Source: a virus. From it: DNA of 30,099 bases. The stretch spans positions 1 to 30,099 of IMG/VR virus record IMGVR_UViG_3300032278_000080; one strand, written 5' to 3'. The notes under the pieces were generated by a model, which made no database searches, was not told where the DNA came from, and saw only the letters and a list, made by a program, of their open reading frames with translations. The position numbers were made by a program, and so were the translations under genes. Positions 5,899-28,787 of this stretch are shown piece by piece (positions within the stretch are counted from its first letter, which is position 1; each line of letters starts with the position of its first letter).

Positions 5899-6569
5899 TA
5901 TGCCATCGCCAGCCCAGCAGCAAACCCGTACCAAACCGGAGAAACACCGCCATTGAAAGTAACAAACGTAAGAATATCTATACCCGTAGTAGCAGTAGTC
6001 GTCAATGTAGGAGCCGTACCTTCAGCCCACTTCACACTAGTAAACGTACCAGTACGACTACCCGTACCATCCTGAGTAAGAATGAGTGTCAACGAAGTAC
6101 CAGCTTGAAGCCCAGAACCTGACGGCATTGTGAACGTACAGTTACCTGTCATCGTCCACGTTTGGACATTGCCATTAGTTTCAGCAAGTGTTTTAGCAGT
6201 AGCTGTATCACCACCAGCGTAAACAGTTTCGGCATAATCCTTATGCGTAACCGTTGACATAACCTGATCTGCACCAGTAACAGCACCCGAAAGAGTAGTA
6301 CCAGCAAGAGTCGAACCAGTCAAAGTCTTCGACCACGTTGTCGTAGCGTCAACACCAGAACCACTCTTTTGCATCAAAGCATACTGATCGGCATCGGCAG
6401 CATTATTCGCTGCAATACCCAACTTTGCTTCCAAAGCAATAAGCGCAGTTGAATGCGCCCCATGCACCTGATCGTGCTCGTAACCAGAAGCATCTAAATC
6501 TGTAGTAGAAGCTGGTGTCGGCTGTTGCGCTGATGTATCTAACGAAGTTGGGTAATTAGATGAAGGCAT
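5898..6569 (-). CDS. Tail-fibre-like virion protein (223 aa)
   Basis: The start is ATG at 6569 with AGGAG seven bases ahead; the SD begins within the stop codon of the gene before it. The N-terminus (YPTSLDTSAQQPTPAST, then GYEHDQVHGAHSTALIALEAKLGI) matches a segment often seen in fibre proteins of environmental phages. The middle (about residues 75-110) is Thr/Ser/Gly-rich. The C-terminal domain (about 130-223) has WTMTGNCTFTMPSG, LTLILTQDGTGSR, VKWAEGTAPTLTT and DILTFVTFNGG, a beta domain common in collar and tail fibres. The stop shares a base with the start of the glycine-rich gene, suggesting the two act together at the host-contact structure. Confidence 0.72.
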   Translation of the reverse strand: MPSSNYPTSLDTSAQQPTPASTTDLDASGYEHDQVHGAHSTALIALEAKLGIAANNAADADQYALMQKSGSGVDATTTWSKTLTGSTLAGTTLSGAVTGADQVMSTVTHKDYAETVYAGGDTATAKTLAETNGNVQTWTMTGNCTFTMPSGSGLQAGTSLTLILTQDGTGSRTGTFTSVKWAEGTAPTLTTTATTGIDILTFVTFNGGVSPVWYGFAAGLAMA

Positions 6570-7268: not shown

Positions 7269-8237
7269 TTAGTTGGCACCAATACTGGAAGCTGATTCCA
7301 CACGGATCATGCACTTCTCTCGGAAGATGCCGTATCCAACTAGGTGGTACCAACCAATTGGGTTGAACCGACGCAGAGTATCAGTCACAGGGCCAACAAC
7401 AATAGTTGGATCTGGACCAAACCCTGGGGCACGAGAGAAGCCTTTTGCAAGAGCTTGTCGGCCACAGATAAGGGTTTGGTAAACATCGACTGTACTAGCA
7501 CCACCGTCAGCGATTAAACCTGCACGAGGGTTCTCGATGTAGGTAATACCGTTGAAAGTACCAATCGAACCTACACGAATAGGTTCACCTTGCTGGTACA
7601 ACTGGTACTGAATGACATCCGTTACCGCAGCATCACTACGAAGATCGTAGGAAACATCCGGGTGGATGATCGCCATGTAGTTACCGTTTTCCCAGCCGGG
7701 GGCTGAATCGGTACGCAACTGAGCGACGGCTCGTCTACCCAAGGTAGCGTCATAAAGGTCGGTAGCAGTAATAGCGCCACGGCTAGTGCCGGGGCCTGCG
7801 CCTATACCCGAATAGATAATTTGCGCCGCTACAACGCTGCCATTGGCAACATTAGACACAAGTTTATCAAGCGAGTTCGCCATGTTATAGCCAACAATGT
7901 TGGCTGCATCAGCATCAACATTCAGGAACGATGTTCCACGAATCTTGGCACTGGTGATAACCGCATTGCCGTACTCTAAAAGAGCTACGTCTACCTTGCT
8001 ATCGCTAATTGCAACAGCGGTAACGTCAGCGTTTTCGGTTAATGCTGTTACTGCTTGGGCAATCTCGTCAATGAACGTGAACTGCACAGTCGCCGCATTA
8101 TGGCTTTGAGCAGTCGAACGCACATCAGCGAGCATTTCGAATAGGGGTTGTGACCGGAGCGCAAAATACGAGATTTGGTCAAATGCCGTAGTTACCTGAT
8201 TGGTAAGCGTACCAGTCGTTACTGTAGGTGCTGCCAT
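7269..8237 (-). CDS. Major capsid protein, N4-gp56 type
   Basis: The 322-aa product builds the icosahedral shell. It resembles the N4 gp56 family of HK97-fold capsid proteins: an N-terminal helix (AFDQISYFALRSQPLFEML), a strand with TVQFTFIDEIAQAVTALTENADV, the ALLEYGNAVITSAKIRG block, MAIIHPDVSYDLRSD (about residues 188-202), and the family-typical end WYHLVGYGIFREK followed by MIRVESAS. Length is normal and I see no separate protease or delta-domain. The start ATG 8237 has AGGA eight bases ahead. It follows the scaffold-like gene by 38 bases and is probably transcribed from the promoter near 8850 as well as from the long operon. A capsid of this family is found mainly in podoviruses and some environmental siphoviruses. 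Confidence 0.88.
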   Translation of the reverse strand: MAAPTVTTGTLTNQVTTAFDQISYFALRSQPLFEMLADVRSTAQSHNAATVQFTFIDEIAQAVTALTENADVTAVAISDSKVDVALLEYGNAVITSAKIRGTSFLNVDADAANIVGYNMANSLDKLVSNVANGSVVAAQIIYSGIGAGPGTSRGAITATDLYDATLGRRAVAQLRTDSAPGWENGNYMAIIHPDVSYDLRSDAAVTDVIQYQLYQQGEPIRVGSIGTFNGITYIENPRAGLIADGGASTVDVYQTLICGRQALAKGFSRAPGFGPDPTIVVGPVTDTLRRFNPIGWYHLVGYGIFREKCMIRVESASSIGAN

Positions 8238-8275: not shown

Positions 8276-8758
8276 TTAGACGCTAGCGTTCCACCCAAAA
8301 CCTTGCGATTCCATTAAAGCCTTTAACTCAGCTTCATTCGTAGTAGCTTTAATGCGATCATCAAAATCAGGTGGGATTACCGGATCTCCGCCTTCGCCAG
8401 CAGTCTGGATACGGGCCTCAGCAAGCATTTCGCTGGTCCATTCGGGTTCACGATTCGGCTGGGCTGGCATCGGATTGTCTCCGATAAACCCTGCCGCCGC
8501 TGCTTCCTCACGGATAGCTTCGGGGTCCATGTCACCGTCATAACCTTTAACGAAATACTTGACACGAGAATCATCAGGATCAAGTCCTGCTGATCTAAAC
8601 GTATCCCGACGTTCGTAATCTGCGAGTTTCGCAGCCAAGTCAGCCTGAGAGTCCTCAGCCTTTTTGGCACGATTCTCTAGTTCACGTCGCCAGTTCGGTT
8701 TCGATTCGGTACTGCCAGAATCGTAGTCACTGTTACCAGTGGAGTCGGAATCTGTCAT
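8276..8758 (-). CDS. Scaffolding-like head assembly protein (160 aa)
   Basis: The start is ATG at 8758, with a good AGGTGAG about nine bases ahead. The protein is acidic and highly charged: a Ser/Asp/Gly-rich N-terminus (residues 1-20), a predicted coiled coil (PNWRRELENRAKKAEDSQAD to YERRDTFR, about 21-54), then GLDPDDSRVKYFVKGYDG, an acidic helix and a C-terminal helix (NEAELKALMESQGF). The coiled coil plus the GLDP..S.VKYF.KGYDG motif, placed immediately before the capsid gene, is the pattern of actinophage scaffold proteins that organise capsid subunits and then leave the head. The assignment is from pattern and position. It is the first gene after the likely internal promoter. Confidence 0.75.
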   Translation of the reverse strand: MTDSDSTGNSDYDSGSTESKPNWRRELENRAKKAEDSQADLAAKLADYERRDTFRSAGLDPDDSRVKYFVKGYDGDMDPEAIREEAAAAGFIGDNPMPAQPNREPEWTSEMLAEARIQTAGEGGDPVIPPDFDDRIKATTNEAELKALMESQGFGWNASV

Positions 8759-8830: not shown

Positions 8831-8874
8831 GATTTAGTACATGTTAAGTATGGCAGAAACTATTGCACTAAATC
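8831..8874. repeat. 8-bp inverted repeat bracketing the promoter
   Basis: GATTTAGT (8831-8838) and ACTAAATC (8867-8874) are exact reverse complements separated by 28 bases. One arm lies in the -35 box, the other just downstream of the expected start of transcription. This is operator-like geometry; an RNA hairpin in the readthrough transcript is the alternative. Confidence 0.5.
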
Positions 8875-8876
8875 AA
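8847..8876 (-). promoter_or_regulatory. Likely sigma70-type promoter for scaffold and capsid genes
   Basis: On the minus strand, TTGATT (8876-8871) and CATACT (8852-8847) are separated by 18 bases. Each hexamer matches the sigma70 consensus at four of six positions. The -35 box overlaps the TGA stop of the 516-aa gene, and the 114-base gap to the scaffold start is the longest gap within the late cluster. The leader would be roughly 80 bases. Confidence 0.5.
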
Positions 8877-10423
8877 GTACCCGTAGTACCGAAACCAGCG
8901 AATCCGCCTTGGTCCCCATAAAGACCGCTACGTCCACCCAATCTAGAACGCCTATTTTCTACAACTGATTCGATTTCTTGGTTCGCAGTACTATCCATAC
9001 CCATGCTACCTAACGCAATTTGGTCTGTTGACAACGAATTCTCATTCAACAATCGAGAAGTTAACCCTCGTGAACCAGCTAGTTTTGCCATATCGCTGAC
9101 ACGAACCGCTGCTTTCTCTAATTTCTCAGCAGCAGATTTACTTAACCCTGATCCCAAAGAACGAACAACACCAGCAGACATCTGGGCAGTACGCATCTCC
9201 CGTTCCTGCTGAATAATACTTTTTGCACTCGTCGGGTCAAGATAAATCGCAGTTAACTGATCTCGGGTTACACCATAAAGACTTTCTAACTGGTTAACAG
9301 TCTCAGAATCAGCACCACCCGCCGCCTGATAAGCAAGATTTACACGACGTTGAAACTCTGGGGCTGCAACATCGCCACCAATAAGCTTGGCAAAATCGGC
9401 TGCCTGATCATAAAACGTAGCAGGAAGTTTGGCAGCTTTTAACGCTGTCCGATAGTCATCTTCCAAATCTAAATAAGTAGTTTCGTTAATGGCATTAAAA
9501 TCGTTTGCAGCACGCAACGCCATACCGGGGAATCGGGCTTTATATTCTGGTCGTTCACGCAGCTTTTGAATAATCCCAGTATCGCTTGTCCCCTCAATGA
9601 TTTCGTCAGATAAAAACTCAACCAGTTTCATATCTAAACCATAAAGTTTGATTAAACGAGTGAGGGCACCTTTAGCACTTTCTTCACCCTCAGCGTTAGT
9701 TAAACCGTCACCCCCACGCCATAATGTGTCGCCAATGGCAGGAGCAGCCCCAGGACTAGATCCTGCTGCCCCAGGGATTGACCACGTTTGGTTCGGATCA
9801 TATTCGCCAGTGATCGGGTTTATATTGGTTGATTGTCCTGGTTGGAGATCCGGCCAATGAGGCGAATAAGGTGATTCTCCTGGCTCGGGTCCGCCCCCAA
9901 CTGGTCCCAGCCCCGGGTCCTGAGTACCCGATGTTACCTGAGGGGGCTGACCACTACCGAAGAATCCATTAGGTGTCCACTGATTCGTATAGTGGTCAAC
10001 AATATATTTTTTCTGACCCCACTGGTCCTCCTCTTGCATCCATCCTTCAGGCAAAGTATCTTCCGACGGTGGATCAGGCATATTGTATCCCCCCTGCCAT
10101 CCACTCATTACTTCGTCACGACCCCCATAGGTCCTGTCGTTCCATGTGCCTTCGCCTTCAAATTGGCCGCTAACAAAAACACCTTCATCAGCAAGTTGGG
10201 TTGTGATATCGAACACATCACCCGTAGTTGTGCGATGCTCCTGATCCCAACCTCCACTTAACTCTAAAATCTGAGACAAATCTGGCGGTTGCGGACCGAA
10301 ATATCCTATAGCGCCTTCTTTCTCAGCGTTTTCAGCACGCTCACGACTGACAGATCCCCAACTACCCAGCGGTCTTTCTTTCGATGGAGGATAAAGAATA
10401 AAGAATTGTGATTGTTGGGCCAT
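8873..10423 (-). CDS. Large probable internal/structural virion protein (516 aa)
   Basis: A longer frame starts at 10441, but ATG 10423 shares a base with the preceding stop (TAATG) and gives the natural start MAQQSQFFILYPPSK. The first half (to about residue 230) is rich in Gly, Pro, Trp and Asp with little predicted structure. The second half is helical: LDMKLVEFLSDEIIEG, an ERPEYKARFPGMALRAANDF segment, YRTALKAAKLPATFYDQAADFAKLIG, then VTRDQLTAIYLDPTSAKSII and a long charged helix. It ends in a Gly-rich tail. No enzyme motif is seen. It belongs to a block of four large genes between portal and scaffold and is most likely a minor capsid or ejected protein. No family name can be given. Confidence 0.6.
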   Translation of the reverse strand: MAQQSQFFILYPPSKERPLGSWGSVSRERAENAEKEGAIGYFGPQPPDLSQILELSGGWDQEHRTTTGDVFDITTQLADEGVFVSGQFEGEGTWNDRTYGGRDEVMSGWQGGYNMPDPPSEDTLPEGWMQEEDQWGQKKYIVDHYTNQWTPNGFFGSGQPPQVTSGTQDPGLGPVGGGPEPGESPYSPHWPDLQPGQSTNINPITGEYDPNQTWSIPGAAGSSPGAAPAIGDTLWRGGDGLTNAEGEESAKGALTRLIKLYGLDMKLVEFLSDEIIEGTSDTGIIQKLRERPEYKARFPGMALRAANDFNAINETTYLDLEDDYRTALKAAKLPATFYDQAADFAKLIGGDVAAPEFQRRVNLAYQAAGGADSETVNQLESLYGVTRDQLTAIYLDPTSAKSIIQQEREMRTAQMSAGVVRSLGSGLSKSAAEKLEKAAVRVSDMAKLAGSRGLTSRLLNENSLSTDQIALGSMGMDSTANQEIESVVENRRSRLGGRSGLYGDQGGFAGFGTTGT

Positions 10424-11991
10424 TATGCTATTGCACCCCACTTCCTTAGAATCATGTCAGCCTTATCCGTATACTCGATTTTAGCGTTTTGGGTTTCATC
10501 CCATTTATATTTAGGAGTTTTTTTAAGATACATCCCTGCTTCATGATAAGACATAGGACGAATTGTCCCAGTGGCATCATCAGTCGAATGTAAAAACATT
10601 TCATTAAACATGTTGCGATCTCTACCATACATATCCACAGGCCGTTCCAAAAGAGCTTCTGCCTCTGCCTGATATGGGCCTACATAGTCACCAAGGTTGT
10701 TACCGTCATCCATAAGTTTTTGAAGATGCGGATACTGTTCGTAAGCCATTTTCCTGAACTTTGTTTCAAGTCCATCTATTGTTTCCAACCCAAGATTAAT
10801 TCGTTTCGCATACAGATTTCTTTGATCTGGGGTCAACGAAATCATATGAGTTCGAGCTTGATCCATAACGTCGTCAACTGCTGTCTGGTGTTTGCCAACA
10901 GCTTGATCCATAACAAATTCTTTATGGTCATAAAACATCTGTGCAATACGACCATCTTCTGCTGTCCAACCATGTCGTCTGATTTTGATTGCGATCTCTC
11001 TAAGAACCGGATGGTCTTCGGGCACGTCGAGGCCAAACGCTTGGGCCTGTATCCAAACATTGTGAAGAGTATTCTCGATCTCGCGATCCTGCTCCTCAGG
11101 AGTCATCACCGACCAATCAGCATCCCACGATGTGTAGGTTGCAAATCCGGGGGTTTTACGCATGAACTCTAAAGCACGATTAGGGTCAACCTTAAAATAA
11201 GATAAATAATTAACAACGTTCCAAGGTTCGTTAATCGGAGGGAACCCCTCTGGGATGTCTTCTGGTTGTATCAACCAGTCATCACCTTCGAAAAAGTCGA
11301 GTCCACCGATAAGATCTTGCAACGCACCCAAATCATACGGTTCGTCGTCTTCGTCTTCCCCATCTTTCTCGCCGTCTCCCGGTGGAATAGTTTTGGGAGT
11401 CCCGACAAGAGTAGCCGGATCATCCATAAATCCCGGTGTAGAGGCACCTTCCCGAATATCAGGCTGTGGTACAGCAGGTCCACGTTCAACATCTGGCCCC
11501 GGCATATCTTCTTCACCGGGTTGGGTAGTCGGATCAGGTATAAGTCGGTCATCAGGATGGAAACCAGATGAACCTAATATTTTATTACCCAGACCTGCTG
11601 CCGTAACATTACTTGACGTAGAACCAGATAAAACAGAACCCCTTAACCATTCCTCTTGCTGGGTCCCGGTTGGGTGGTCGGAAGCCGGGGCTGAATTTAA
11701 CCAATCTTCCAATTCAGATATAGTCTTATCAGACGCAACAGATCGCCACTCATCTTCAGAATAATTACTTCTTATCCATTCAGCAACGTATTGAAAATCA
11801 CCGATTGGTCCAAGATCTTTGATCTGTTCCATCGCTGCTTGGTTTTGCATGAAAATAGGGTCATCGGCCTCTGTACGTTCAAGGAAGATATTGTTCAGAA
11901 GACCAGTAGCATCCACATTTCGGGCATATTTGATAATTAGATCCAACAACCGTTTTGTCGCATTATAAATTTCTATAGTTCGAGTAGCCAT
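10423..11991 (-). CDS. Large probable internal/structural virion protein (522 aa)
   Basis: ATG 11991 shares a base with the stop of the 305-aa gene (TAATG). Residues about 1-130 are helical (TIEIYNATKRLLDLIIKYAR at the start). Residues about 145-215 form an acidic Pro/Gly/Asp-rich linker with PGEEDMPGPDVERGP and DGEKDGEDEDDEPYD. From about 235 onwards the protein is helical again and rich in Trp, Asp and His, including ALEFMRKTPGFATYTSWDADW, HNVWIQAQAFGL and DEYTDK-like charged ends. There is no recognisable catalytic signature. The two-domain layout with an acidic linker and its coupled place after the giant gene suggest a virion protein that works with it. Confidence 0.58.
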   Translation of the reverse strand: MATRTIEIYNATKRLLDLIIKYARNVDATGLLNNIFLERTEADDPIFMQNQAAMEQIKDLGPIGDFQYVAEWIRSNYSEDEWRSVASDKTISELEDWLNSAPASDHPTGTQQEEWLRGSVLSGSTSSNVTAAGLGNKILGSSGFHPDDRLIPDPTTQPGEEDMPGPDVERGPAVPQPDIREGASTPGFMDDPATLVGTPKTIPPGDGEKDGEDEDDEPYDLGALQDLIGGLDFFEGDDWLIQPEDIPEGFPPINEPWNVVNYLSYFKVDPNRALEFMRKTPGFATYTSWDADWSVMTPEEQDREIENTLHNVWIQAQAFGLDVPEDHPVLREIAIKIRRHGWTAEDGRIAQMFYDHKEFVMDQAVGKHQTAVDDVMDQARTHMISLTPDQRNLYAKRINLGLETIDGLETKFRKMAYEQYPHLQKLMDDGNNLGDYVGPYQAEAEALLERPVDMYGRDRNMFNEMFLHSTDDATGTIRPMSYHEAGMYLKKTPKYKWDETQNAKIEYTDKADMILRKWGAIA

Positions 11992-12908
11992 TATTGACTC
12001 ACGCCTTCATAGTCACTCAACAACATGTTCGCATAAGCCACATACTTTTTACGACTCTGCATCGCCACAGCCTCAGGAGCTATCTCTCCCACACCAGTAG
12101 CCGCATAAGCACCCGGATTCATTTCCTCACCACGCTCTGTTTTTTCCTGCTTTGCTGCCCGATATCCCTGAAGCCATTGCTTATAACCTCCGGGGTTTCC
12201 TTTCCTTATGCTGTAACCAGCTTTTTGCTTTGAAGTTGTATCAAACAGTTCCCGCAAATAATCTGGGTCAGGCATTTCTGTTGCCCCAAGAATAATATTG
12301 TCCAGCATTTCTTCAAAAGAATTAAAATCTGTATCAGCAAATCGGCCTTCTAAAGTCGGGACGTAATCCATGCCCGAATCTTTTGTGAAGCCATGTTCCG
12401 TTAACCCAAATTCTTTCGCTCGTGTTGACACATCCGAGATAGCTGCACCGATACCGTCTATCACAGTATCTAATTCGTAAAGATCATCTGCTTCATCAAT
12501 ATCATCAATGAAGCCTTCGATCAAAAGCCCTTGCGCTAATTTCCTGAAATCTTCCTGCCCTGGTATAGACCAAAGATCACGAACATAATTTAAGACATCG
12601 GCGCTTCGCCATTCTCGACCCTCGTCGGAAAGCTGATAAGGTTGCCCCCCGGTAAGGCTGCTACCCGGCATCATTCGTCCGGGTTCCATTTCGTATCCGA
12701 GGACTACACCCATCCGAGTTGCTGGTAAACCACCCCCAGCAATTAGATTTCTGACCATTTCATCTAGTTCTTCATCAGTTGCGGCCATCCCCAGTATCCA
12801 AGGGAACTGTTCAAGAATGTCTGCTTTGTTTACCTGAAATTCAGGATCATTTTTAGACCAGCCCCCCTCTGGTTCTTTAATGATTGTATTTGTAGGTCGA
12901 TCTACCAT
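11991..12908 (-). CDS. Probable virion protein of unknown function (305 aa)
   Basis: ATG 12908 lies three bases after the giant gene's stop. The protein is acidic in its first two thirds, with helices such as KADILEQFPWILGM, TDEELDEMVRNLIAGG and DLYELDTVIDGIGAAISDVSTRA. The last quarter turns basic and aromatic (GYKQWLQGYRAAKQEKTERG, then SRKKYVAYANMLLSDY). Helix content without membrane segments or enzyme motifs is like that of internal virion proteins. It is coupled to the 522-aa gene by TAATG. I do not recognise a family. Confidence 0.55.
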   Translation of the reverse strand: MVDRPTNTIIKEPEGGWSKNDPEFQVNKADILEQFPWILGMAATDEELDEMVRNLIAGGGLPATRMGVVLGYEMEPGRMMPGSSLTGGQPYQLSDEGREWRSADVLNYVRDLWSIPGQEDFRKLAQGLLIEGFIDDIDEADDLYELDTVIDGIGAAISDVSTRAKEFGLTEHGFTKDSGMDYVPTLEGRFADTDFNSFEEMLDNIILGATEMPDPDYLRELFDTTSKQKAGYSIRKGNPGGYKQWLQGYRAAKQEKTERGEEMNPGAYAATGVGEIAPEAVAMQSRKKYVAYANMLLSDYEGVSQ

Positions 12909-12910: not shown

Positions 12911-15900
12911 TTATACCTGTAAACTTTGGTCAGCAGCTAATTGCCTTATACTAGACGGCCAACTGTCTCGTGTAATAACATCGTCATTATCAAAATAGCG
13001 CAAAAACACTTCTTGGAAATCAGGTATCAAACCAAAGGTAAGTCGTAACGCTTCCCACCGCTCTTTCAAATCCTCGTTCTGGGAATGCGACAAGGTTTGC
13101 ATATCCGAATCTCCACTATGTTGAGATCGACTCAACATTTCTAATGCGATCGCATCTCGTTCATAAAGATACATAATGATGTGCGGCAACTCCGGTCGCC
13201 CTTGATGAGTTTCCAAATCTGATTCAACAAAATCTCGGAACTCATTGATAACACGAGCGGTCTGACCCATTGAAGAAACACTGTTGTATTCCTCCAACCA
13301 CATCGGATATCCCTCACCTATCACCCGAATTATTAGTTGTTTTTTGGCAAGATGATGCTGGTTGTAGTCGGCATTCAAACTGAACGGCAACCCAAGGCGT
13401 CTCTGAGTATCAAGCTCCTCATTGATCGGAGTCATATATGTAGAGAATCGATACCACCCCATATTTCCTTGTGCTCGTCGCAGAATTTCTGATGGTGTTT
13501 GATAGACACGGCGACCTTCTGCGATTTCTTTTCTGTAGACAGCCCGATTAAATTCGTATTGGACATCCAAAGTTCCAAGTTTGCCAAGCAAAAAATCTTG
13601 GATCTCGGGGTGGTTATCGATAAACTCTTTGTTGGCTTCATAAAGATGGTGGCCTTTTAATGTTGCAGCAGCGACTCCTTCGACACGAGTTTGCCGACCA
13701 AGTTGCCCCCAAAGATGCGGATAATGCCGTATCAAATGTTCATCTGCTGCTTCTAAACCGTATTCTTCTTTAATCCGTTGGTAATCGTTAATGGCTTCTT
13801 GATATGGTGACTGCACCAATGTGCTAAACGGAATTGCCAAGGCACTTATCAAACGAACTTGGAGATGCGCTTCTGCTCGCTTCGTTACCTCATCATCCCA
13901 TTCTTGTAATGCCTGTGGCGAATCCCATAGCTGATTGTTTAATGTCCATTCTGCTATAACATCGCCAGCGTGACGAGCAAAAACTCGTGCCCGTTCATCT
14001 GTGGAAAACAGTTGACTTCCCAGAACACTTGCTGCTCTTGGTAATGTCGAATCAATCAGTCGTGTCCAGGCTGAGTGTCCTTCGGCGATACCTCCAGGGA
14101 ATACTCGTGCCATTGTGATTTCTAGTTCTGGCATCGCAATACGAATTTCGGAAGCTAGGGCACCATATAGGGGACCGTAACCGGGCATACCTCCTGTGAT
14201 CATTGCCATAGATCCAAGATTGACTTGTATTTGGTGATCTTTCAATACACCCATCTTGCCTAAGTAACTGTGACCACCGAAAGCAGGTACCCAATCTGGT
14301 ATTTTTTCGTCAACGTCTAATCCAAAGATTTCACTCGGGATTCTAATGAGTGCTAGTTTTTCGGGGTTTCCGTTTTCGTCAAGCCAAAGTTTGGGTTCAC
14401 CCGTTTCTTCATCAATGAGGGGGTTGCCTTCTGCATCTGTTTGCACAATGAAACCATCACCGGGCCATATGTCTCCCTCTATGGCTTTACGGAAATTACG
14501 TGCAGCTTTGAGAACAAAGTCAGGATTCCTGACTGCGATACCTGCCCACCGAGTAATAACTTCTTGGTATGCGGCGAAGAACGGCATAATGTTTGCCATT
14601 ATTTCTTCGAATCGTGTCCGTTCAGCTAAATCATACAAAAGGTCTTTGGTGTGCTTTAACGCTATGCGCCGTGATTCGCCTTCGATAGCGTTAATCCGTT
14701 TGCTGTCAATAATGAAACCAGAATCGGGGCTACCTAACGCTTGTATTCTTTGTGCGACTTCACGTTGGTAAATGGTATTGAATACAACGCTTCGTGTAAG
14801 TGTGTCCGTCGGCAATGTGCCGATGTTTTGAAACATTTCGTCTATCCGACGTTTCACATTAACAACTAACCCATGCGTCCTAGCAGCATCAACAAAACTG
14901 CCGTCACCGATGACTTTGCCAATAGCGTTATAAGAACCCAACCCAGCTTCATATGCTTGCGTACGAAGCTTTTCCACGCTGCCACCGAAATGCTGATTAA
15001 TAATCGGTTGGATATCTCGAACCCAGTTTACTTCATCGCCCCTAGATGCCGCCCTTCGAACAAATCTGAATTCTGGAAGATTGGGAATCAACGAATCCGT
15101 TTCAAATCGGACTTGCGTAACCCAATCCCTAAGAGAATGTTCGTTCTGAGCGAACTGGGTAGGCATAATCGTTTTCAAATCTTGGCCTGGACCTTTTGTC
15201 AACCAACGAACAATGTCATCATCGGTAACATCGTCTAACCAAAACATACGAGTAAAATCTTGGTAAGGGTTACCTTCGACAGCAGCTACACCTGATTGTT
15301 CCCGCCACCATTTTGCGTCTGCCTTACGGTTAGCAAGATCATCGAGTGGATTATCGGGATACATCGTTGAGCGAGCGTATGCATCAGCATCTCCTAGCGG
15401 AATCCATTGCCTATTAATGGTGTCATTCCATGCATCAACAAAAGGTTTACCGTTGGTGTAGTCGTACTGTTGATGGCTAGTAGCTCTAATGTTTCTTCGT
15501 TGAGCTTGGCTTGTAGTGGACCAAAGAGCACGACTGTAACTATCGGCGGACATAGCATTTCGCCACATTTCTACGTCCTGTGGAACATTCCCGAATTCGT
15601 TTCCGATTCTTACCCCACTCATGTGGTAGTCGCTTACACCGGCATCAGACATAATTTTGCCGACCGTATCAAAGTTCTCTGCAAGATCGTCGTGCTCATA
15701 TACGGCCATTTCGTCGTAAACGTTTTCGATCTCGGCCTTTCTCTTTTTCTGAAGATCCTTCATTATCTGTCTTCGGCCACGTGGTTCCGTAAGCGCCCAT
15801 TGTTCTATGAGTTGGCTGCCTTGGGTTTCTAAAACTCTTTTAGCATCTCTCAGAGTTTGCATTTCTTTGATGGCACTGTCGTATTCAGGGGTTCCTTTAA

Positions 15901-18900
15901 CGAGTTTGCCTTTGAACCACCTATCAGTGCTTACGCTTCTGGCGATAAGACCTTCAATGTCGGCAATCCGGTTACGCATACGCCCTGTCGCCATATTCGA
16001 CAAGGTGTAACCCATAGTGTTCGCTGTTTCGATTTCGGCTAACCGTCGAAGCGACCGGCGAGAATGCAGAGCATGTATACCACCGGCTGCGGCCATCCCT
16101 ACTGGTCCAGCCACAAAAGCGCCTACTGCTGAAGCCCCCATCGCTCGACCCGCACTTCGACCCAACCCCGGAATACCCTTGTCCCTATAAGACTTGACAA
16201 TAACGCCTTTAACTAGTTTTTGTATTTTCGTATGATCGTCAGCGTACTTAGTCGCAATAGCCTCAACTAGCAGCGGATAATCGGCATTCCTGGCAGTAAG
16301 GTGACTGCCCGCTCCTTTGAATCCTGTGAAATCTAATCCCAGATCTTTCTTAAAGGCATCCATTACCAACGGGTTAAGATCAACACCACGTTGCTTATAC
16401 CAACCTGCTTGAAGATTTCCCCATCCATGAACAAACCCACGCAAAGCATGTAGAGCACCCAATTCGGCTGCGTTACGTGCAAGCTCATCTGTGATAACTC
16501 GCATCGGCCAAGCTGGACGCAACAGAACTGAACGCTTCCAAATACTTGTGAAAGCATTAGCTGTATAACCAACAGCATCTTTTATGCCCCTAGCTGCTAA
16601 TGCTGTTTTACTGAGATCAGTAAATGCATCACGATAGAGATCGTACCGAGGGACAAGATTTGATGTTGCCAGTTGTTGCGGTGTCAGATTTTCGAATTGT
16701 CGAACATTAATAATGCCGCCTTCCTCGGCTCGGGCAATCATCATTTGGCTGTTGCCGTAGATGCGTCCGTTGGACCCCATCTCCTGAAGTGTGCGTTCAG
16801 CACGCTTATGATTTCTGCGTAAAACTCTGGTCAGGTCATTAGGTGTGTAACTCGTTTTCCCATTGAAAAGAATTCTTCCGTGGAATAATGCTGGAAGATT
16901 ATTGTTCAGCTTTTCAACCGTTTCATGGAAAATTATTTGCTTCTCTTTTGTGGTCTTTGCAGCAGAGAATCGTGCCATAACGTCGTCAGGGTCTACACCC
17001 GCATACTCAGTTAGAGAAACAGTATCCTCACCATCTACTTCGGCTCTTTTGACCTTACCCCGTTTGGTTTTAGCCCAATCATTTGTAACTCGTGATGCGT
17101 CACGCATCATCCGATCCATTTGCTCGTATGCGTGCTGTACGTTGTCCCAATAAATAATTCCCTGTGGAACTTTTTCGTTAAACAGCCGCACAACTCGATT
17201 CGGGAACCACGGAGAATCTGCCGCATCTTGCCAGAACTCTTTCATCCAGACTTCACGTCTAGACATTTCTGGGATACTTCCGATAATACCCGGTTGGACC
17301 TTTTCCATGATTTCGTGAGCAGCAGCCATAACCAAAGCTGAATCTCTGTTAAGACCCTCCTCCATAGCATCTATTAACTCGTCACCCTTCTGGATAGAGA
17401 TATCTCGCCGTCGAGCCAAGGAACGTAACTTCAATTCTTCCATAGACAAAGCTGCCGCATACGGGAACCCGACATATTGGCCGTTCATAAGTTCACCGTA
17501 TATTTGGTTTTGCATCGCCATGAGTTCATCATCAGGGATTTCGTCTATAACAAGGCCACGACTTTGCTGGCGTCGCACGACTTCTCTTGTTGTAGCCAGT
17601 TCACTCGGTGTCATCTCTCTATAGAACCGACTCTGATCTCGCATAGCGATACGCATTTCGTCATCAGCAAGAACGGTGCCAGTAACAATATCTTCCCAAA
17701 CACTTGTATCGGTAATTGTCCAGCCGTGAGTTTTAGCCCAATCCTCAAATTGATCTAATGGCACGACTGTTATATCGCCACCGAGAGTGCCCAAAAATTC
17801 AGAAGAAGCATATTCCTCGAAATGTGCGTATTCAGAAAAAGCTTTAGGTGCTCCTGCTATCGGTTCACCGGCAGCAATAATCACATCTTTCTTTTTACTG
17901 TCAGCCCATTCTCTCACTTGGAAATTGCGACGAGTTATAAGTCCTGTTTCTGGGTCAAGGTACTGAACTTCTTTCCGTGGACGTTTGACATATCTACTAT
18001 CTTTAGGTCCCTGAACCCATTTACCCGTAACCATTGGGACACCGGTAAGGGGATCAAGATCTCTCCCAACAGTATGCGGACCACTCTGAAGTTCTTTACG
18101 ATAGTCAGCTACCTGTTCAGCCTTTTGGCTAATCGCTACATCAAGTTCAGCAAGATCCATTTGAGCTACCAAATGTGCTTGATCCGGCACTAAACCAGCC
18201 TCTACATGTTTTGCCGTTATCTTTGCAAGAATCCCGGCTCTTATCAACATTCGTGTTTGGTTAGCGTTATCTGTAAGTCCAGACGTTGCCACATTACGTT
18301 GGTAAACACCTTGATCAGTAATTTGTACTAATTCGTCAGCAATTGTTCCCTCTGACGATGTGAGCATCCAATCCCAGTCGGATTCAAATCCGATATATCC
18401 ATCCCACTGTTTAGCAAATTCCTTACTTGCTTTAGCTTTAGATAATTTGCTAGGGGTAAGGTCGTAGAGCAAGCCTTCGGGGGTTGATTCTGCAATTACT
18501 GCTGTGACTTCTCTACGATGGTTATTGATCCAACGTTTATCTTTAGTTGCAAGATTTTTCCAAGAAACCCGGTTTTCTATAAGATGTCGTATACGTTCAG
18601 GAACATCATTTATATCTCCTGTCTCTGACAAATCCTGCCAGAACCGATTCCTGAATTGCTCTGGTTTGACTGCCCGTGTCGATTCAACTTCGAGAATGAA
18701 ATCCATCCACCAAATATCGAATGGATCATCAGGTCCCATTTCAGATGTGAGCTTCCACCTGTTTGTAGCCCAATAAGGAAGATTCTTGTTCCCCTCGGCT
18801 GTTGGCGCATACATCGGAACTTTTCTTCCACGTATCGGAAGATTCAGACCAGTGTCGGTTCGACGTATCTCGTGAGCCTCTCCGAACTTTGCGAGAATTC

Positions 18901-21472
18901 TATTTCTCGCATCTATAGGAATCTTTGACCATTTGTCACCTATATACGTCGTGAGTGTCTTGTCGTTTCCAATAACCTCCCGCAATATTTTTCGACGTTG
19001 TGCGACGGTAAGGCTTCTTAGTTGCTGGTTTAATTCTTTAGGAGCAGTCGCACCTCCCCCCTTCGGATTGACAAGTCCTCGCGGAGTACCCATTTTCTTA
19101 AAGTCGGTTTGATTTGCACCTAAGAAATCCCAGTACTCCTCTAGTCCTTCGTGAGAAAGATAACGGAATTCAGGAGCATCGGGATGCATAAAAGCATCCG
19201 CCTTACGACGGTCATATACGACTGGAACATCGGGATCAAGTCCTTCTGCTTTGGGTCCCTGAATCGGATTTCCCTCACGATCTAGCGGCCAGCGATCACC
19301 GCTACCGGGGAATTTTCCCTCTACAAGTTCTGTACTCTGGAGTCTTTGTTGGGTGGGGGGTCCTATTTCCCTAACCGGTTTCCCATCGGGACCTAATATG
19401 TAAGATCCAGTTTCCCCAGCCCTGAAACCCGCTTGGTCAACCCCTTGCCTCGAACCGAACCCCATTTGGGGGCCACGTCCGTGACCTTTACCCCTCATAG
19501 ACCCACGAACGACTTGCTGAACAAATCCTTGATAAGTTACTTGCGACAAATCGTGAAGATTAATTGGTTTGCCATAACGTGCCGACCAATACAAGGCTCC
19601 GTCCATAGCATCAATAATTGCGGCTCGCCGATCTGCCGAAAGCCCATCAAATGCGGCTTGGGCTGAAGCCTTACTCGGTTGCCGCCCAACACCTAATCCA
19701 GTTACAAATGCTCTTTCTTCTCCAGCAAGTTGTTGCGCTTCACGATTTTTTCTTAACTGTTCAGTTGTTTCTTTCAGACCTTTACCGGTACGAGCAGTAA
19801 CTGTTCCCCCAGCTTCATTTCGTTGCTGATTCCGCATAGATTCCACGGAATGATCCATAGCTTTGTCTGTCTCTATTAGATCATTCCATCGTTCAACAAA
19901 TTCTGCTACACCAGTTTGGTCATCTGGGTGAACGCCAGCCCAATTCAATAATCCTTGTTGGTCTGCTTCTGGTAAGTCATCCCAAAGTTTGCGAATAAAA
20001 TGTCCTGTCGCACCACGAGTCGGTATCCACCGGTAGCCACCATTGCCCAACGGGTCGATCTCTTTCGCAGATTTCTTGTTGAACCAAAAACCTGTACGAG
20101 TAGCAGCATCACGAACTTGATCCTGAGCAAATATATCAAGACTACCGAATGTTTTATCATCCAGAACTACACCAAATGCTTCTGCCCAAAGTTCATCTAC
20201 TGATTGACCATGCCAATCAAACATCTGAATTTTGTTTGGATTCCTGACTTCTGCACCCGAGACAAGAGGACGACCGTCAGGACCATAAAGAATTTGATTT
20301 ACACCGGCACTATTTCTTAAAGCAATATCTCGTTGTATCGGGTCGAGAGGTAACCCATCGAGGCCAACAACTGGCATTCGTTGGGCAGGCTGATTGAGTT
20401 TATCTATTGTGTCTATCAGTCCTCCCTCAACTTTTTGATTCAGATATTCGTTTGCTTTCCCAATCATTTCGGGAAGAACTGTGGCATCACCTGCCCAGAG
20501 ACGTATCAGCATGTCAAATGCTTCGTCGTTATGAATAACGGAAGCTAATTGGCGTGCTTGGTAATGCTCCATATCTCTGACTTTGGCACCAAGTTTGCCC
20601 TCATTAGCATCCGTCAATATTTGGTAAGCTAACTGGGTGATAATTTCGGTGTCTCTTGTATTGGGTTCAAACCCTAAACCAGATTTGAATCTGTCAGAAG
20701 CTCCAGTAACGAATTCATCTAATTGGCCGATGTTTTGGATTTGAGTTTTCCAGCGAAGATATTTTCTGGACTGGACGCCACTTTGAGCTAAATAATCTGT
20801 AGAACGAACTGTCCGTTGCGCTATTTGCGACAACTTTCTGAGTTTGGCAGGAGCGACAAGGTTTGCCGGATCTAACCAAATGTTACCTATACCGTCAAGA
20901 AGACCACTCGTAAGGTTGAACCATGATGATCCTGAATAACGTTCTTCAACATTTGTTTGTGTCCAATCAGCCCCGGTAAAAGATAAAGCGAATGCTTGTC
21001 CAGCACTTCGCGAATTAGTGATATTCCATGCTTTCATCCAATCTGTCGGATCGACAAGCAAAGTCGGATCTTTCCAACTATTACCTGCAATAGTTAAAAA
21101 TGTTCCGACTGGTCTATCAACTGCGTATTCATAAACTCCGTCTAATAACTCGAAGGTGGGGGTGATGATGGTATTGCTAGCACTTCTGACCTCTTCGGGT
21201 ATCGACCCGAAAAACAACCCACCAAATCCGCCCCCATATTCTCCTGTTTCTTTATCGTGGGTATCTGGACCAAAAAGAGAGTTAACAACTCCCTGTTCCC
21301 CTAAAACGTTGTCTTTCCATGAACCCCAAATAGCATCTAAAAGGTTGTCCCCTTCGAATTCGTCGTCTATTCCAACGGCTTCTTGACCGATATCAATAAA
21401 AAACTCGGCAGATTTTTTGCCGGTGTGCCACAGGGCTTTGCCCATGCCCTCTATGCGGCCAACAAAACCCAT
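12911..21472 (-). CDS. Giant probable ejected/internal virion protein (2853 aa)
   Basis: One uninterrupted frame of 8.6 kb starts at ATG 21472 by a TAATG junction. The N-terminus (MGFVGRIEGMGKALWHTGKK) has no signal peptide. Residues about 390-420 and 690-760 contain turn-rich linkers (GPDGRPLVSG, GPDGKPVREIG, DREGNPIQG); 555-590 is a likely coiled coil. Around 1640-1680 is SIWKRSVLLRPAWPMRVITDELARNAA, a block I associate with giant virion proteins of environmental phages. Residues about 1777-1805 form a Gly/Ala-rich hydrophobic stretch (GASAVGAFVAGPVGMAAAGG) that could enter a membrane. Near 2310 is FEEIMANIMPFFAAYQEVITRWAG. The C-terminal 400 residues are helical. I found no lytic transglycosylase, peptidase, nuclease or RNA polymerase motif. 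Its place right after the portal block, and the absence of a tape measure, fit a DNA-ejection protein; that function is inferred. Confidence 0.62.
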   Translation of the reverse strand: MGFVGRIEGMGKALWHTGKKSAEFFIDIGQEAVGIDDEFEGDNLLDAIWGSWKDNVLGEQGVVNSLFGPDTHDKETGEYGGGFGGLFFGSIPEEVRSASNTIITPTFELLDGVYEYAVDRPVGTFLTIAGNSWKDPTLLVDPTDWMKAWNITNSRSAGQAFALSFTGADWTQTNVEERYSGSSWFNLTSGLLDGIGNIWLDPANLVAPAKLRKLSQIAQRTVRSTDYLAQSGVQSRKYLRWKTQIQNIGQLDEFVTGASDRFKSGLGFEPNTRDTEIITQLAYQILTDANEGKLGAKVRDMEHYQARQLASVIHNDEAFDMLIRLWAGDATVLPEMIGKANEYLNQKVEGGLIDTIDKLNQPAQRMPVVGLDGLPLDPIQRDIALRNSAGVNQILYGPDGRPLVSGAEVRNPNKIQMFDWHGQSVDELWAEAFGVVLDDKTFGSLDIFAQDQVRDAATRTGFWFNKKSAKEIDPLGNGGYRWIPTRGATGHFIRKLWDDLPEADQQGLLNWAGVHPDDQTGVAEFVERWNDLIETDKAMDHSVESMRNQQRNEAGGTVTARTGKGLKETTEQLRKNREAQQLAGEERAFVTGLGVGRQPSKASAQAAFDGLSADRRAAIIDAMDGALYWSARYGKPINLHDLSQVTYQGFVQQVVRGSMRGKGHGRGPQMGFGSRQGVDQAGFRAGETGSYILGPDGKPVREIGPPTQQRLQSTELVEGKFPGSGDRWPLDREGNPIQGPKAEGLDPDVPVVYDRRKADAFMHPDAPEFRYLSHEGLEEYWDFLGANQTDFKKMGTPRGLVNPKGGGATAPKELNQQLRSLTVAQRRKILREVIGNDKTLTTYIGDKWSKIPIDARNRILAKFGEAHEIRRTDTGLNLPIRGRKVPMYAPTAEGNKNLPYWATNRWKLTSEMGPDDPFDIWWMDFILEVESTRAVKPEQFRNRFWQDLSETGDINDVPERIRHLIENRVSWKNLATKDKRWINNHRREVTAVIAESTPEGLLYDLTPSKLSKAKASKEFAKQWDGYIGFESDWDWMLTSSEGTIADELVQITDQGVYQRNVATSGLTDNANQTRMLIRAGILAKITAKHVEAGLVPDQAHLVAQMDLAELDVAISQKAEQVADYRKELQSGPHTVGRDLDPLTGVPMVTGKWVQGPKDSRYVKRPRKEVQYLDPETGLITRRNFQVREWADSKKKDVIIAAGEPIAGAPKAFSEYAHFEEYASSEFLGTLGGDITVVPLDQFEDWAKTHGWTITDTSVWEDIVTGTVLADDEMRIAMRDQSRFYREMTPSELATTREVVRRQQSRGLVIDEIPDDELMAMQNQIYGELMNGQYVGFPYAAALSMEELKLRSLARRRDISIQKGDELIDAMEEGLNRDSALVMAAAHEIMEKVQPGIIGSIPEMSRREVWMKEFWQDAADSPWFPNRVVRLFNEKVPQGIIYWDNVQHAYEQMDRMMRDASRVTNDWAKTKRGKVKRAEVDGEDTVSLTEYAGVDPDDVMARFSAAKTTKEKQIIFHETVEKLNNNLPALFHGRILFNGKTSYTPNDLTRVLRRNHKRAERTLQEMGSNGRIYGNSQMMIARAEEGGIINVRQFENLTPQQLATSNLVPRYDLYRDAFTDLSKTALAARGIKDAVGYTANAFTSIWKRSVLLRPAWPMRVITDELARNAAELGALHALRGFVHGWGNLQAGWYKQRGVDLNPLVMDAFKKDLGLDFTGFKGAGSHLTARNADYPLLVEAIATKYADDHTKIQKLVKGVIVKSYRDKGIPGLGRSAGRAMGASAVGAFVAGPVGMAAAGGIHALHSRRSLRRLAEIETANTMGYTLSNMATGRMRNRIADIEGLIARSVSTDRWFKGKLVKGTPEYDSAIKEMQTLRDAKRVLETQGSQLIEQWALTEPRGRRQIMKDLQKKRKAEIENVYDEMAVYEHDDLAENFDTVGKIMSDAGVSDYHMSGVRIGNEFGNVPQDVEMWRNAMSADSYSRALWSTTSQAQRRNIRATSHQQYDYTNGKPFVDAWNDTINRQWIPLGDADAYARSTMYPDNPLDDLANRKADAKWWREQSGVAAVEGNPYQDFTRMFWLDDVTDDDIVRWLTKGPGQDLKTIMPTQFAQNEHSLRDWVTQVRFETDSLIPNLPEFRFVRRAASRGDEVNWVRDIQPIINQHFGGSVEKLRTQAYEAGLGSYNAIGKVIGDGSFVDAARTHGLVVNVKRRIDEMFQNIGTLPTDTLTRSVVFNTIYQREVAQRIQALGSPDSGFIIDSKRINAIEGESRRIALKHTKDLLYDLAERTRFEEIMANIMPFFAAYQEVITRWAGIAVRNPDFVLKAARNFRKAIEGDIWPGDGFIVQTDAEGNPLIDEETGEPKLWLDENGNPEKLALIRIPSEIFGLDVDEKIPDWVPAFGGHSYLGKMGVLKDHQIQVNLGSMAMITGGMPGYGPLYGALASEIRIAMPELEITMARVFPGGIAEGHSAWTRLIDSTLPRAASVLGSQLFSTDERARVFARHAGDVIAEWTLNNQLWDSPQALQEWDDEVTKRAEAHLQVRLISALAIPFSTLVQSPYQEAINDYQRIKEEYGLEAADEHLIRHYPHLWGQLGRQTRVEGVAAATLKGHHLYEANKEFIDNHPEIQDFLLGKLGTLDVQYEFNRAVYRKEIAEGRRVYQTPSEILRRAQGNMGWYRFSTYMTPINEELDTQRRLGLPFSLNADYNQHHLAKKQLIIRVIGEGYPMWLEEYNSVSSMGQTARVINEFRDFVESDLETHQGRPELPHIIMYLYERDAIALEMLSRSQHSGDSDMQTLSHSQNEDLKERWEALRLTFGLIPDFQEVFLRYFDNDDVITRDSWPSSIRQLAADQSLQV

Positions 21473-21828
21473 TAGAACTGTCCATCACCGTTTAGGGGAG
21501 TGACCATCGCTTTCCATTGGTTAACAATATTTCGGGTAGAGGCACTAGATGTCGGTTTTGATGCTGCCTCTAATAGTTGAGGCATAATCCGTGCAACTTT
21601 GAGACTGTAATCATCTCCTGAATCTCGATCAGCAATTGGGTTATCAGACATCGGAGCCGATACTGGTTGATTAGGAAATTCGGTTGGGCGCAACAAAGGA
21701 CCAGCACTCCCCGGTCTTACCGAAGGTTCAACGTTTTGTGGCAAAGGAATCATTTCTTGTGATTCAAGTTGCTCTGTTGCCTTACCGTATTGTTGACCTG
21801 TGGATGCTTTGGCAGGTTGATTTGCCAT
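21472..21828 (-). CDS. Small portal-adjacent protein of unknown function (118 aa)
   Basis: ATG 21828 shares a base with the portal stop (TAATG), and its own stop couples to the giant gene. Residues 1-75 are Pro/Gly/Ser-rich and likely disordered, with PGSAGPLLRPTEFPNQPVSA near 40-59. Residues 75-118 contain one amphipathic helix (YSLKVARIMPQLLEAASKP) and NIVNQWKAMV. Proteins with the PLLRPTE..N.P..A segment are commonly encoded after portals in environmental phages. A role as a minor head protein or as an adaptor between portal and giant protein is possible but unproven. Confidence 0.62.
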   Translation of the reverse strand: MANQPAKASTGQQYGKATEQLESQEMIPLPQNVEPSVRPGSAGPLLRPTEFPNQPVSAPMSDNPIADRDSGDDYSLKVARIMPQLLEAASKPTSSASTRNIVNQWKAMVTPLNGDGQF

Positions 21829-23588
21829 TACAGTGCCCCTATTAATTCATCCAACCCTGCTTGCGGTTGTTCCATCATCGGTTCCATTGGCATAGATTCG
21901 GCTCCCATTCCAGGTAACGCCAATCCTGGTTGCGCTTCTGGCGCATCCATCGGCACTTCTTGTGCTTGCCGTTCCTGTGCTTCACGTTGAACTGTTGTAA
22001 CAGCTTCGGCAAGTTCTTGTTTATTGTGTTTTACTAGATCCATAATCCGTGCAAGGTCACTCGGTGGGATAATTCCTTCACTGGCTTGTGCTTGGATAGC
22101 TGTCAATAATGCTTGTTCTATTTGTTCCGCAATAACTATGTCATGTTCCTGTTCTGGATCATCGACCAGCGGATCAATCGACATGAACGATTGTTTCGAC
22201 ATCGTACCCATACCAAGACGTTGACCGCCTCCGATAATGAGTTCGTTGATATCGGAACCGGGATGGCTGTATGAAACTATGTTCTCTGTGGAATCAAAAT
22301 TGGTGCTTGGTGTGTAAGTAACGTGCCCCTTAGCGGTCTTAGCGCCAACATAGAACGACCTTTTGCGTCCACCAGCATACTTTTTCGCCATTTTGACAGC
22401 TATTTCGTTCTCTTCTTGGAGTGAACGGGACATGATTCGTTGTGCTTCTTGTACTGTGAAGTCAATAGTGGCTGACAAAACAGCGTCACCTCGTCGCCCA
22501 GTACGGATATTCGAAGTTGATTCCCCTCCAAATTCCTGAGGGATACCAGCGGTAAGTCGTTGTGCCCGTTCTAGCCGATCAATTGCCGGATTCGTCATGT
22601 AACCCGGTTGCATTTGCATATCTTTCAATTCTCCACCCCGGATTACACCAACTTCACCAGTCAAACCATCTGCTGGGTTAACTATTTGGGGTGTTTCGCC
22701 CTGTCGCCCAATCAACCATGTATCAGGGAATATGCCTTTTTGTACTGCTATTACTTCGAGAGCCATTAACCGGGCTTGCATCTGATACATACCAAGAATG
22801 CCATCGAATTGGCCTCGTGCATCGTCCAAACTGATTCGTTGGGCGAATACAACAGGGCATTCTTCTAATCGGTTCTCTACTCGTTCTAATTCAACAGCAA
22901 CAAAGGGGCTTTGTTCAGTCATTTGACCAAACGATACGGTTTGTATTGGGGATCTAGTCCCAACCAGTACTTGTTCTTCGGCTGAAACGTATTCGATCAT
23001 TTCGATAGTATGATCTTGTTGCGTTGTGTCTTTAGCACTAAATTCTGCTGCGGCTGATGGGTAATGTTGTTTCAACCAACCGAACGAACGTTCGTAAGCG
23101 AAAATCACATCTCGTGGACGCATGTCTTCAACACCGAGCAAAGTTGCCGGATATGCCGTTAATGGATCTCGGACTCTCCATTCAGGACATTTCGTGACCT
23201 GATTAAACCGTAACTGGGTACAGGTTGTTGAATATCCAATAAGATGCCGTGCTCGTTTGGAAAGTTGGAGATCCATCCGGCTGTGTTCCCACCAACCAAA
23301 TAATGCTTTACGTCGAATATCGGCATTGTCTCGTGCCTTTTTGGTAGCAGAGTCAATAGGGGGACAGAAGATGTCGGGGTTAGTTGATGAAATCCGCATA
23401 GCAGTTTGATCAAGACCTTGTGCAAGCAAATTAGCAACCGCAGATTTTTCATCTGCGTCTAATTCTGGTAGCGGAACTACAACATCGCCGTTATAATAAT
23501 CTCGCAATGTACGCATTTTTGATTTTGCGTTATCGTTTATGCGAGATCGGGATGTGTAAAGTGCTACAACTTCATCAACTGTTTTCAT
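21828..23588 (-). CDS. Portal protein
   Basis: The 586-aa product would form the ring at the unique capsid vertex through which DNA enters and leaves. It has the length and layout of portals from tailed phages of Gram-positive bacteria: an N-terminal helix (YTSRSRINDNAKSKMRTLRDYYNGD), VANLLAQGLDQTAMRISSTNPDI, then the clip/wing region with WRVRDPLTAYPATLLG and RDVIFAYERSFGWLKQHYP. The FGGESTSNIRTGRRGDAV block near residue 360 and a long helix (SATIDFTVQEAQRIMSRSLQ) match the crown and stem part. The C-terminus is Gln/Pro/Met-rich. It directly follows the terminase. The SD before ATG 23588 is weak (GGATAGG). Confidence 0.86.
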   Translation of the reverse strand: MKTVDEVVALYTSRSRINDNAKSKMRTLRDYYNGDVVVPLPELDADEKSAVANLLAQGLDQTAMRISSTNPDIFCPPIDSATKKARDNADIRRKALFGWWEHSRMDLQLSKRARHLIGYSTTCTQLRFNQVTKCPEWRVRDPLTAYPATLLGVEDMRPRDVIFAYERSFGWLKQHYPSAAAEFSAKDTTQQDHTIEMIEYVSAEEQVLVGTRSPIQTVSFGQMTEQSPFVAVELERVENRLEECPVVFAQRISLDDARGQFDGILGMYQMQARLMALEVIAVQKGIFPDTWLIGRQGETPQIVNPADGLTGEVGVIRGGELKDMQMQPGYMTNPAIDRLERAQRLTAGIPQEFGGESTSNIRTGRRGDAVLSATIDFTVQEAQRIMSRSLQEENEIAVKMAKKYAGGRKRSFYVGAKTAKGHVTYTPSTNFDSTENIVSYSHPGSDINELIIGGGQRLGMGTMSKQSFMSIDPLVDDPEQEHDIVIAEQIEQALLTAIQAQASEGIIPPSDLARIMDLVKHNKQELAEAVTTVQREAQERQAQEVPMDAPEAQPGLALPGMGAESMPMEPMMEQPQAGLDELIGAL

Positions 23589-25527: not shown

Positions 25528-25809
25528 TTACTGGCACGACTCGCACGCCTCGGGATTTTCTAATCCAGATTCGAGTATTTCGTTGTCGTTGAATGGGTCT
25601 ACTGATGGGCGTTCACCGAGTAGTTCGGGGTGTTGTTCAAATACTTCCATGAGCGTAAGTGGTTCCACGTCTAGTCCTTCATCCAACGCCATATCAAAAC
25701 AGAAACAACTATCAAGGCAATCAGGACACCGGTCGCACGCACAGTCATAGTGATAAAAGTGGCATATGCACTCTTCCTCGTCGCAGCCGCAGTCGGATGG
25801 GCGTGCCAT
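25528..25809 (-). CDS. Cysteine-rich acidic protein (93 aa), probable metal binder
   Basis: ATG 25809 shares a base with the upstream stop (TAATG); a TTG two codons earlier is less likely. Twelve cysteines occur in 93 residues: C7, C9, C14, C16, C23, C25, C28, C31, C35 and C37, plus a C-terminal CESC pair (C89, C92). Two histidines (H17, H20) lie among them. The CxC and CxxC spacing suggests two or more metal sites. The remaining middle part is acidic (EPLTLMEVFEQHPELLG). It is immediately upstream of the terminase large subunit, where a small terminase is often encoded, but it has no recognisable helix-turn-helix. Function unknown. Confidence 0.65.
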   Translation of the reverse strand: MARPSDCGCDEEECICHFYHYDCACDRCPDCLDSCFCFDMALDEGLDVEPLTLMEVFEQHPELLGERPSVDPFNDNEILESGLENPEACESCQ

Positions 25810-27780: not shown

Positions 27781-28143
27781 CAAAAATCTCCAAAAATAGT
27801 GTAAACCCCCTACGCCGACATGCTACAGTACAAACGAACCCGCCGCTAACACCGGTCAGATCGCCCGTCAGAGGGGCTTCCGACTCTATGTCCAGACACG
27901 ACGGCCTAAGTTACTGCAAAGAAACACTAGGGGGCACAGAGCGACCAGCACGAGCGGCTAGGTCAAGGTAAGTGGTACCTCAAACCACGGCGGGACCCAG
28001 GGACAAAACCACCCACCCAAACACCCCCCAACCACACCACTGAACCTAACTCAAACCCCCAAAGATAAGCAACATACTGTGCTAGGGGGGCACGGCATAC
28101 ACCCCTAAGAGAACCCACCCCCCAGTGGCCCCACCTTAGCACA

Positions 28144-28161
28144 CCAGACTTCTTCGTCTGG
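28144..28161. other. Short perfect hairpin
   Basis: CCAGAC and GTCTGG flank a six-base TTCTTC loop. On neither strand is it followed by a T-run, so it is not a standard terminator. It lies in the middle of the divergent region. Confidence 0.4.
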
Positions 28162-28269
28162 GTACCTGCGATCCGCCTCTCCCGGGTGGCCCACCCCTCG
28201 CAGCAGCGCCGCCAAAACGACCCCGGAGGCCAATCCCCGCTGCCCAGAGCTTCCGAAGCCAGATGTCAT

Positions 28270-28697: not shown

Positions 28698-28706
28698 TAG
28701 CTGGTA

Positions 28707-28745: not shown

Positions 28746-28787
28746 ACGGTACGACAACCGTCATACCAAACGAAAGGGAGCTTCATC

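Follow-up and report, generated by a model that had tools for sequence, protein, structure and literature searches.

We propose, with good confidence, that the giant gene of the window (the 30,099-base virus record analysed here over its full length) encodes the principal DNA-ejection protein of a marine podovirus, an internal virion protein belonging to a new family. The giant protein most likely resides inside the virion, is ejected and forms a conduit. This role is proposed because the giant gene and three partner genes (P2, P3 and P4) are co-conserved beside the portal gene, because P3 and P4 of some relatives carry cell-wall domains, because the C-terminal part of the giant is predicted to be helical, and because cysteine is excluded from the four proteins. 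The cysteine exclusion is the strongest of these four lines. The proposal gives a role to the giant, uncharacterised family phrog_10618. The aquatic phages that carry this family are widespread, and the hosts of their cultured relatives are Streptomyces and actinobacteria that abound in freshwater. The genes concerned, and the segments of the giant referred to below, are as follows.

1..1380, minus strand: tail nozzle, 460 aa, cut by the window end, identified from the model of a relative (L008)
1362..2285, minus strand: probable head-tail adaptor, 307 aa, by its position beside the nozzle; phrog_7578, uncharacterised
5898..6569, minus strand: tail-fibre-like protein
7269..8237, minus strand: major capsid protein (MCP, Phage_capsid_3)
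8276..8758, minus strand: probable scaffolding protein, by its position ahead of the MCP
8873..10441, minus strand: P4, about 516-522 aa, without cysteine; its profile matches gp13 of Beephvirinae
10423..11991, minus strand: P3, 522 aa, without cysteine; its profile matches both gp11 and gp12 of Beephvirinae
11991..12908, minus strand: P2, 305 aa, cysteine-free; profile matches Beephvirinae gp10
12911..21472, minus strand: giant protein, predicted main DNA-ejection protein, 2853 aa, 321 kDa, 0 cysteines
12929..14854, minus strand: conserved, mostly helical C-terminal core of the giant, residues ~2207-2848 (P2297-F2298, P2430, P2459, G2461, R2825)
16067..16144, minus strand: Gly/Ala hydrophobic stretch of the giant, residues 1777-1802, absent from most family members
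16457..16699, minus strand: conserved M-core of the giant, residues ~1592-1672 (W1645, R1658, D1662, R1666)
17531..20389, minus strand: ~950-residue insertion of the giant, residues ~362-1314, in the hypervariable N-M interval
20846..21169, minus strand: conserved N-core of the giant, residues ~102-209 (G158, G190, D193, P202)
21472..21828, minus strand: 118-aa product of a gene at a conserved position between portal and giant; phrog_8200, uncharacterised
21828..23588, minus strand: portal protein, 586 aa
23593..25518, minus strand: TerL (terminase large subunit)

The giant open reading frame starts with ATG and contains no internal stop. Its start codon and the stop codon of the 118-aa gene overlap (TAATG), and the 118-aa gene in turn follows the portal gene, confirming the direct coupling to the portal block described in the initial annotation. 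That annotation had also taken the frame for an intact gene, and over 100 contigs carry homologues of 1479-3175 aa in the corresponding place, which establishes that it is real and not a chance frame. A PHROGs search returned phrog_10618 (uncharacterised, E 4e-21) as the sole family match, and no domain was recognised in Pfam, NCBIfam or PDB searches, in line with the earlier statement that no lysozyme, protease, nuclease or polymerase motif is visible. Two conserved-looking blocks had been pointed out, around residues 1640-1680 and 2310: the former contains the M-core residues W1645, R1658, D1662 and R1666, and the latter is marked by P2297-F2298, A2301 and E2304. The Gly/Ala-rich stretch suggested as a possible membrane-insertion segment is indeed present at residues 1777-1802, where the Kyte-Doolittle mean over 21 residues reaches up to 1.5, and is found in several near relatives too; a family-wide role for it does not hold, just 40 of 133 family members having a hydrophobic stretch in the corresponding interval. 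Membrane insertion by residues 1777-1802 as a mechanism of the whole family was thus rejected, most members lacking the stretch.

Structure prediction of residues 1654-2853 yielded a mostly helical model of moderate confidence (pLDDT 67, pTM 0.46). T7 ejection proteins are likewise mostly helical. A fold search of this moderately confident model against the PDB gave zero matches, and a search against BFVD returned uncharacterised relatives, including one from phage Manuel.

The extent of the family was determined by scanning IMG/VR with the capsid protein, which yielded at least 595 relatives, and with the portal, which added hundreds more. From these relatives, 112 distinct complete large ORFs (1479-3175 aa) were taken, 104 of which match the family profile. 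The giant family is present in more than 100 IMG/VR contigs, in the Streptomyces podophages of the Beephvirinae and in Planktophila phage F5. Among annotated phages, giant matches are confined to gp9-type products, encoded by Beephvirinae and their close relatives, which are Streptomyces phages. The core profile matches Beephvirinae gp9 with E about 1e-117 over most of its length, and the profiles of the partners match the products encoded next, P2 corresponding to gp10, P3 to gp11 and gp12, and P4 to gp13. One P3 profile matches both gp11 ('peptidase', L002 12251-13567) and gp12 ('glycosylase', 13567-14865), and these two look paralogous. Some 220-300 additional N-terminal residues are located ahead of the N-core in the L276, L280, L295 and L131 giants.

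Gene order follows the same pattern. The order TerL-portal-(118)-giant-P2-P3-P4-scaffold-MCP is seen in 28 contigs, each as far as the contig reaches, and the giant, P2, P3 and P4 genes are found together beside the portal in all lineages examined. Immanuel3 and FlowerPower have the order of the window save for extra genes and a tRNA array. The comparison with related phages that had been called for therefore shows a constant order across the 28 contigs, the Beephvirinae and F5, and both core profile similarity and gene order place the giant in the Beephvirinae gp9/phrog_10618 family. The gp9 proteins of Immanuel3, FlowerPower, Manuel and Abafar share with the giant a homologous core, gene order, partners, a podoviral setting and the lack of cysteine; they differ in length (1635-1648 aa versus 2853), are without the window insertion and are annotated as hypothetical protein only. 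Planktophila phage LanE43AprF5 (OX376641), isolated on a host of the actinobacterial order Nanopelagicales (PMC10202952), shares the gene order and encodes a distant giant (1711 aa, E 5e-13) that is in the same position and also cysteine-free. It is very divergent, and a search of F5 with the P2 profile gave no clear, separate P2-like match.

The initial annotation had the giant replacing the tail machinery expected after the portal, stating that no tail genes were recognised. This is correct for a naive reading of the sequence, but podoviral tail genes do occur in the window. The 307-aa and 460-aa genes are conserved as a pair downstream of the capsid gene. PDB profile searches by sequence gave no match for either nozzle or adaptor, and the nozzle identity comes from a model of the complete L008 relative (642 aa, 60% identical), which adopts a beta-propeller (pLDDT 71, pTM 0.65). 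Compared with the PDB, this model gave 594 significant matches, mostly beta-propellers, among which P22 gp10 was best by E-value; Sf6 gp8 was also matched, and the gp10 and gp8 alignments span 537-557 columns versus ~340 for most propellers. The window phage is therefore predicted to have a podoviral tail, composed of a nozzle and a probable adaptor, the latter assigned by position alone. Abafar, of the Beephvirinae, is a podovirus with a tail of 16 nm (PMC11536984). Since the window encodes a nozzle resembling P22 gp10 and Sf6 gp8 together with a probable adaptor and a tail-fibre-like protein, and since Abafar has a short tail, the tail-replacement claim is unsupported. Also located among the tail genes (window 2282-2680, minus strand) is a gene for a protein of 132 aa that begins with a zinc ribbon (PF09723) and has relatives in many contigs.

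Cysteine content sets the giant, P2, P3 and P4 apart from the neighbouring proteins. In 116-154 distinct sequences of each, cysteine occurs at 0.06 (giant), 0.00 (P2), 0.03 (P3) and 0.09 (P4) per 1000 aa, compared to 10.9 for TerL, 4.9 for the adaptor, 4.5 for the portal, 4.2 for the nozzle and 2.7 for the MCP. The cassette of the window contains none versus about 31-40 expected. When the giant gene is read in its five other frames, each frame has 63-152 TGY codons, and cysteine is the sole strongly depleted residue in the family (log2 -6.35, the next being -0.63). The ejection proteins of T7, P22, SP6 and phiKMV taken together contain 1 cysteine in 8473 aa, and the virion RNA polymerase of N4 has 0 in 3500. 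The remaining tested proteins of T7, P22, SP6, phiKMV, N4 and lambda average 7.0 per 1000. In this respect the cassette behaves as do the known members of the podoviral DNA-ejection class that were tested. A cysteine-free composition is a signature of ejection proteins without being exclusive to them: the lambda tape measure H, the SP6 scaffold, P22 gp26 and the N4 MCP are cysteine-free too, as are several of the small proteins encoded in the window. Lambda H, which shares the signature, is itself a protein of the tail lumen. The absence of cysteine has been remarked upon for one N4-like virion RNA polymerase (PMC4837373), and our literature search for a general statement on cysteine exclusion in ejection proteins found none. 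Cysteine exclusion offers an easily applied and testable criterion for recognising ejected proteins where homology fails; gp15-like proteins, for example, have been matched mostly via size and synteny (PMC8954989).

A phage lysozyme domain was detected in 2 of the 28 P3 members scanned, and a peptidoglycan-binding domain in 2 of the 25 P4 members scanned. The same domain scans recognised no peptidoglycan hydrolase domain in the P3 and P4 of the window itself. We propose that the giant, P2, P3 and P4 constitute a four-protein set that would be built on or near the portal within the head. Ahead of the DNA, the set would pass in extended form through the portal and then the nozzle, and refold to yield a conduit across the cell envelope. 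In those relatives that possess lysozyme or peptidoglycan-binding domains, P3- and P4-type proteins may aid passage through the cell wall, while the ~950-residue insertion could be an accessory module entering the cell along with the conduit. The podoviral adaptor/nozzle tail of phages of this class is represented in the window by the modelled nozzle and by an adaptor placed by position only. Several points argue against ejection: the cassette is located between portal and scaffold, a position unlike that in T7 and P22; similarity to known ejection proteins and a PDB fold match for residues 1654-2853 were not found; lack of cysteine also occurs outside the ejection class; and the P3 and P4 of the window have no recognised peptidoglycan hydrolase domain.

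The idea that the giant and the 305-, 522- and 516-aa products (P4 being about 516-522 aa) might be an ejection apparatus unlike those of T7 (gp14-16) or N4 was already contained in the initial annotation. The first part gains support from the co-conservation of the four genes, their cysteine-free products and the cell-wall domains of relatives. The second agrees with our searches: profiles of giant, P2, P3 and P4 scored no more than 9.6 bits against the ejection proteins of T7, P22, SP6, phiKMV and N4, a sequence relation thus being undetectable, and PDB sequence and fold searches with the cassette gave nothing convincing. Since homology to known ejection proteins is absent, the claim is one of similar working and not of membership in the gp14-16 family. 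The T7 gp14-gp15-gp16 ejectosome and the cassette, whose place inside the virion is predicted, have in common that they are cysteine-poor internal podovirus proteins of which one member may bear a muralytic domain. They differ in the lack of any sequence, profile or fold similarity, in the number of proteins (four in the cassette), in the size of the giant (about twice that of gp16) and in gene position, the T7 ejection genes being downstream of the nozzle gene.

The invariant place between portal and scaffold could also indicate an internal structural protein of the head or portal core that is retained rather than ejected. This we consider improbable, as cysteine exclusion is common to channel-passing proteins and is not seen in portal or TerL, and as some relatives have cell-wall domains in their P3 and P4. 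A tape-measure-like protein would account for the size, helicity and absence of cysteine, in which the giant resembles lambda H, and weak fold similarities in BFVD (E 0.01 and above) point the same way. Set against these are the tail of just 16 nm in a related phage, the P22-like nozzle in the window and the range of family lengths (1479-3175 aa); tail tube and terminator genes were not found in the window, and PHROGs and Pfam gave no profile matches to tape measures, making this reading very unlikely. N4 gp50 is likewise very large, lacks cysteine, is packaged and has its gene next to those of virion proteins, and the window giant shares its size, lack of cysteine and location close to structural genes. 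A virion RNA polymerase of the N4 type is nevertheless hardly credible: searches of Pfam, NCBIfam and PDB with the protein or its profiles gave no polymerase match, gp50 is not matched by the profiles, and the giant has neither a polymerase domain nor homology to gp50.

A further reading, compatible with ejection, is that the giant is a polyvalent carrier, in which the core packages and delivers while the ~950-residue insert acts as an early host effector. Near relatives align to the window giant from residue 1 to ~367 and resume at ~1287-1336, with ~950 residues missing between. Only the closest relative, L147, shares the insertion among near relatives (58% identity over the first ~193 residues, where the L147 contig stops). 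An assembly chimera was rejected as an explanation, since L147 has the insertion too. No relatives of the insertion beyond L147 were found in IMG/VR, GTDB genomes, phages or PDB. Across the family, the N-core to M-core distance ranges from 254 to 1647 residues, with a C-terminal region of near-constant length. Expanded N-M intervals fall into 10 groups between which similarity was not detected, and parsimony on the portal tree requires ~16 changes across a 600-aa threshold. The 47 long N-M intervals hold 3 cysteines in 37459 aa and are as cysteine-poor as the core, which is consistent with passage through the same channel. A second variable interval separates the M-core from the C1 block; it measures 681-1210 residues in the L152, L153, L162, L164, L166-L169, L174, L179 and L205 giants.

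The N-M interval of one relative (L074:931-6288, identical to L143:5295-10652) contains an ADP-ribosyltransferase (PF03496, E 5e-14) at residues ~297-464. The 'TYR' (R), 'STS' and 'EQE' (ExE) motifs are legible in the L074 sequence. This domain, together with the variability and cysteine-poor composition of the intervals, favours a carrier role, as does the report of phage polyvalent proteins beside late genes (PMC5512222); these proteins resemble the giant family in their large size and location. Conversely, the window giant has no recognised enzymatic domain, and the effector is recognised in one member only, PF03496 being absent from 49 other records and Pfam effector domains from 49 segments. 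The conserved core with three constant partners suggests a structural machine, and fast-evolving structural domains could explain the long intervals. We regard a cargo role, plausible for the window insertion, as possible but somewhat doubtful. A bolder reading, which we consider rather less likely than not, is that the giant ejection protein has one dedicated cargo interval, the modules of which (the ADP-ribosyltransferase in one phage, the ~950-residue module here) would enter before the DNA, with cysteine exclusion as a general mark of both conduit and cargo that needs no homology. The interval, given the ADP-ribosyltransferase of one relative, would make the notion of ejection proteins doubling as effector carriers directly testable.

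WhiB is regarded as an indicator of actinophages (PMC10202952). Of 50 related records, 37 have a WhiB gene, but among the roughly twelve marine records closest to the window almost none does. The L151, L164, L165, L193 and L205 records are among these nearest records with WhiB not detected, unlike most of the family. The host of the records nearest the window may therefore differ from that of the wider family.

Upstream of TerL, the window encodes a 95-aa cysteine-rich protein (25528-25815, minus strand) that is Pfam-negative. The region 27800-30099 has few minus-strand ORFs, a higher GC content and a reversed AT skew, and probably represents a switch to another gene module. On the opposite strand, a 160-aa ORF (29267-29749, plus strand) matches the YspA/cpYpsA-related SLOG family (PF10686, E 4e-9), and a 22-nt inverted repeat is located at 29854-29909 within the same region.
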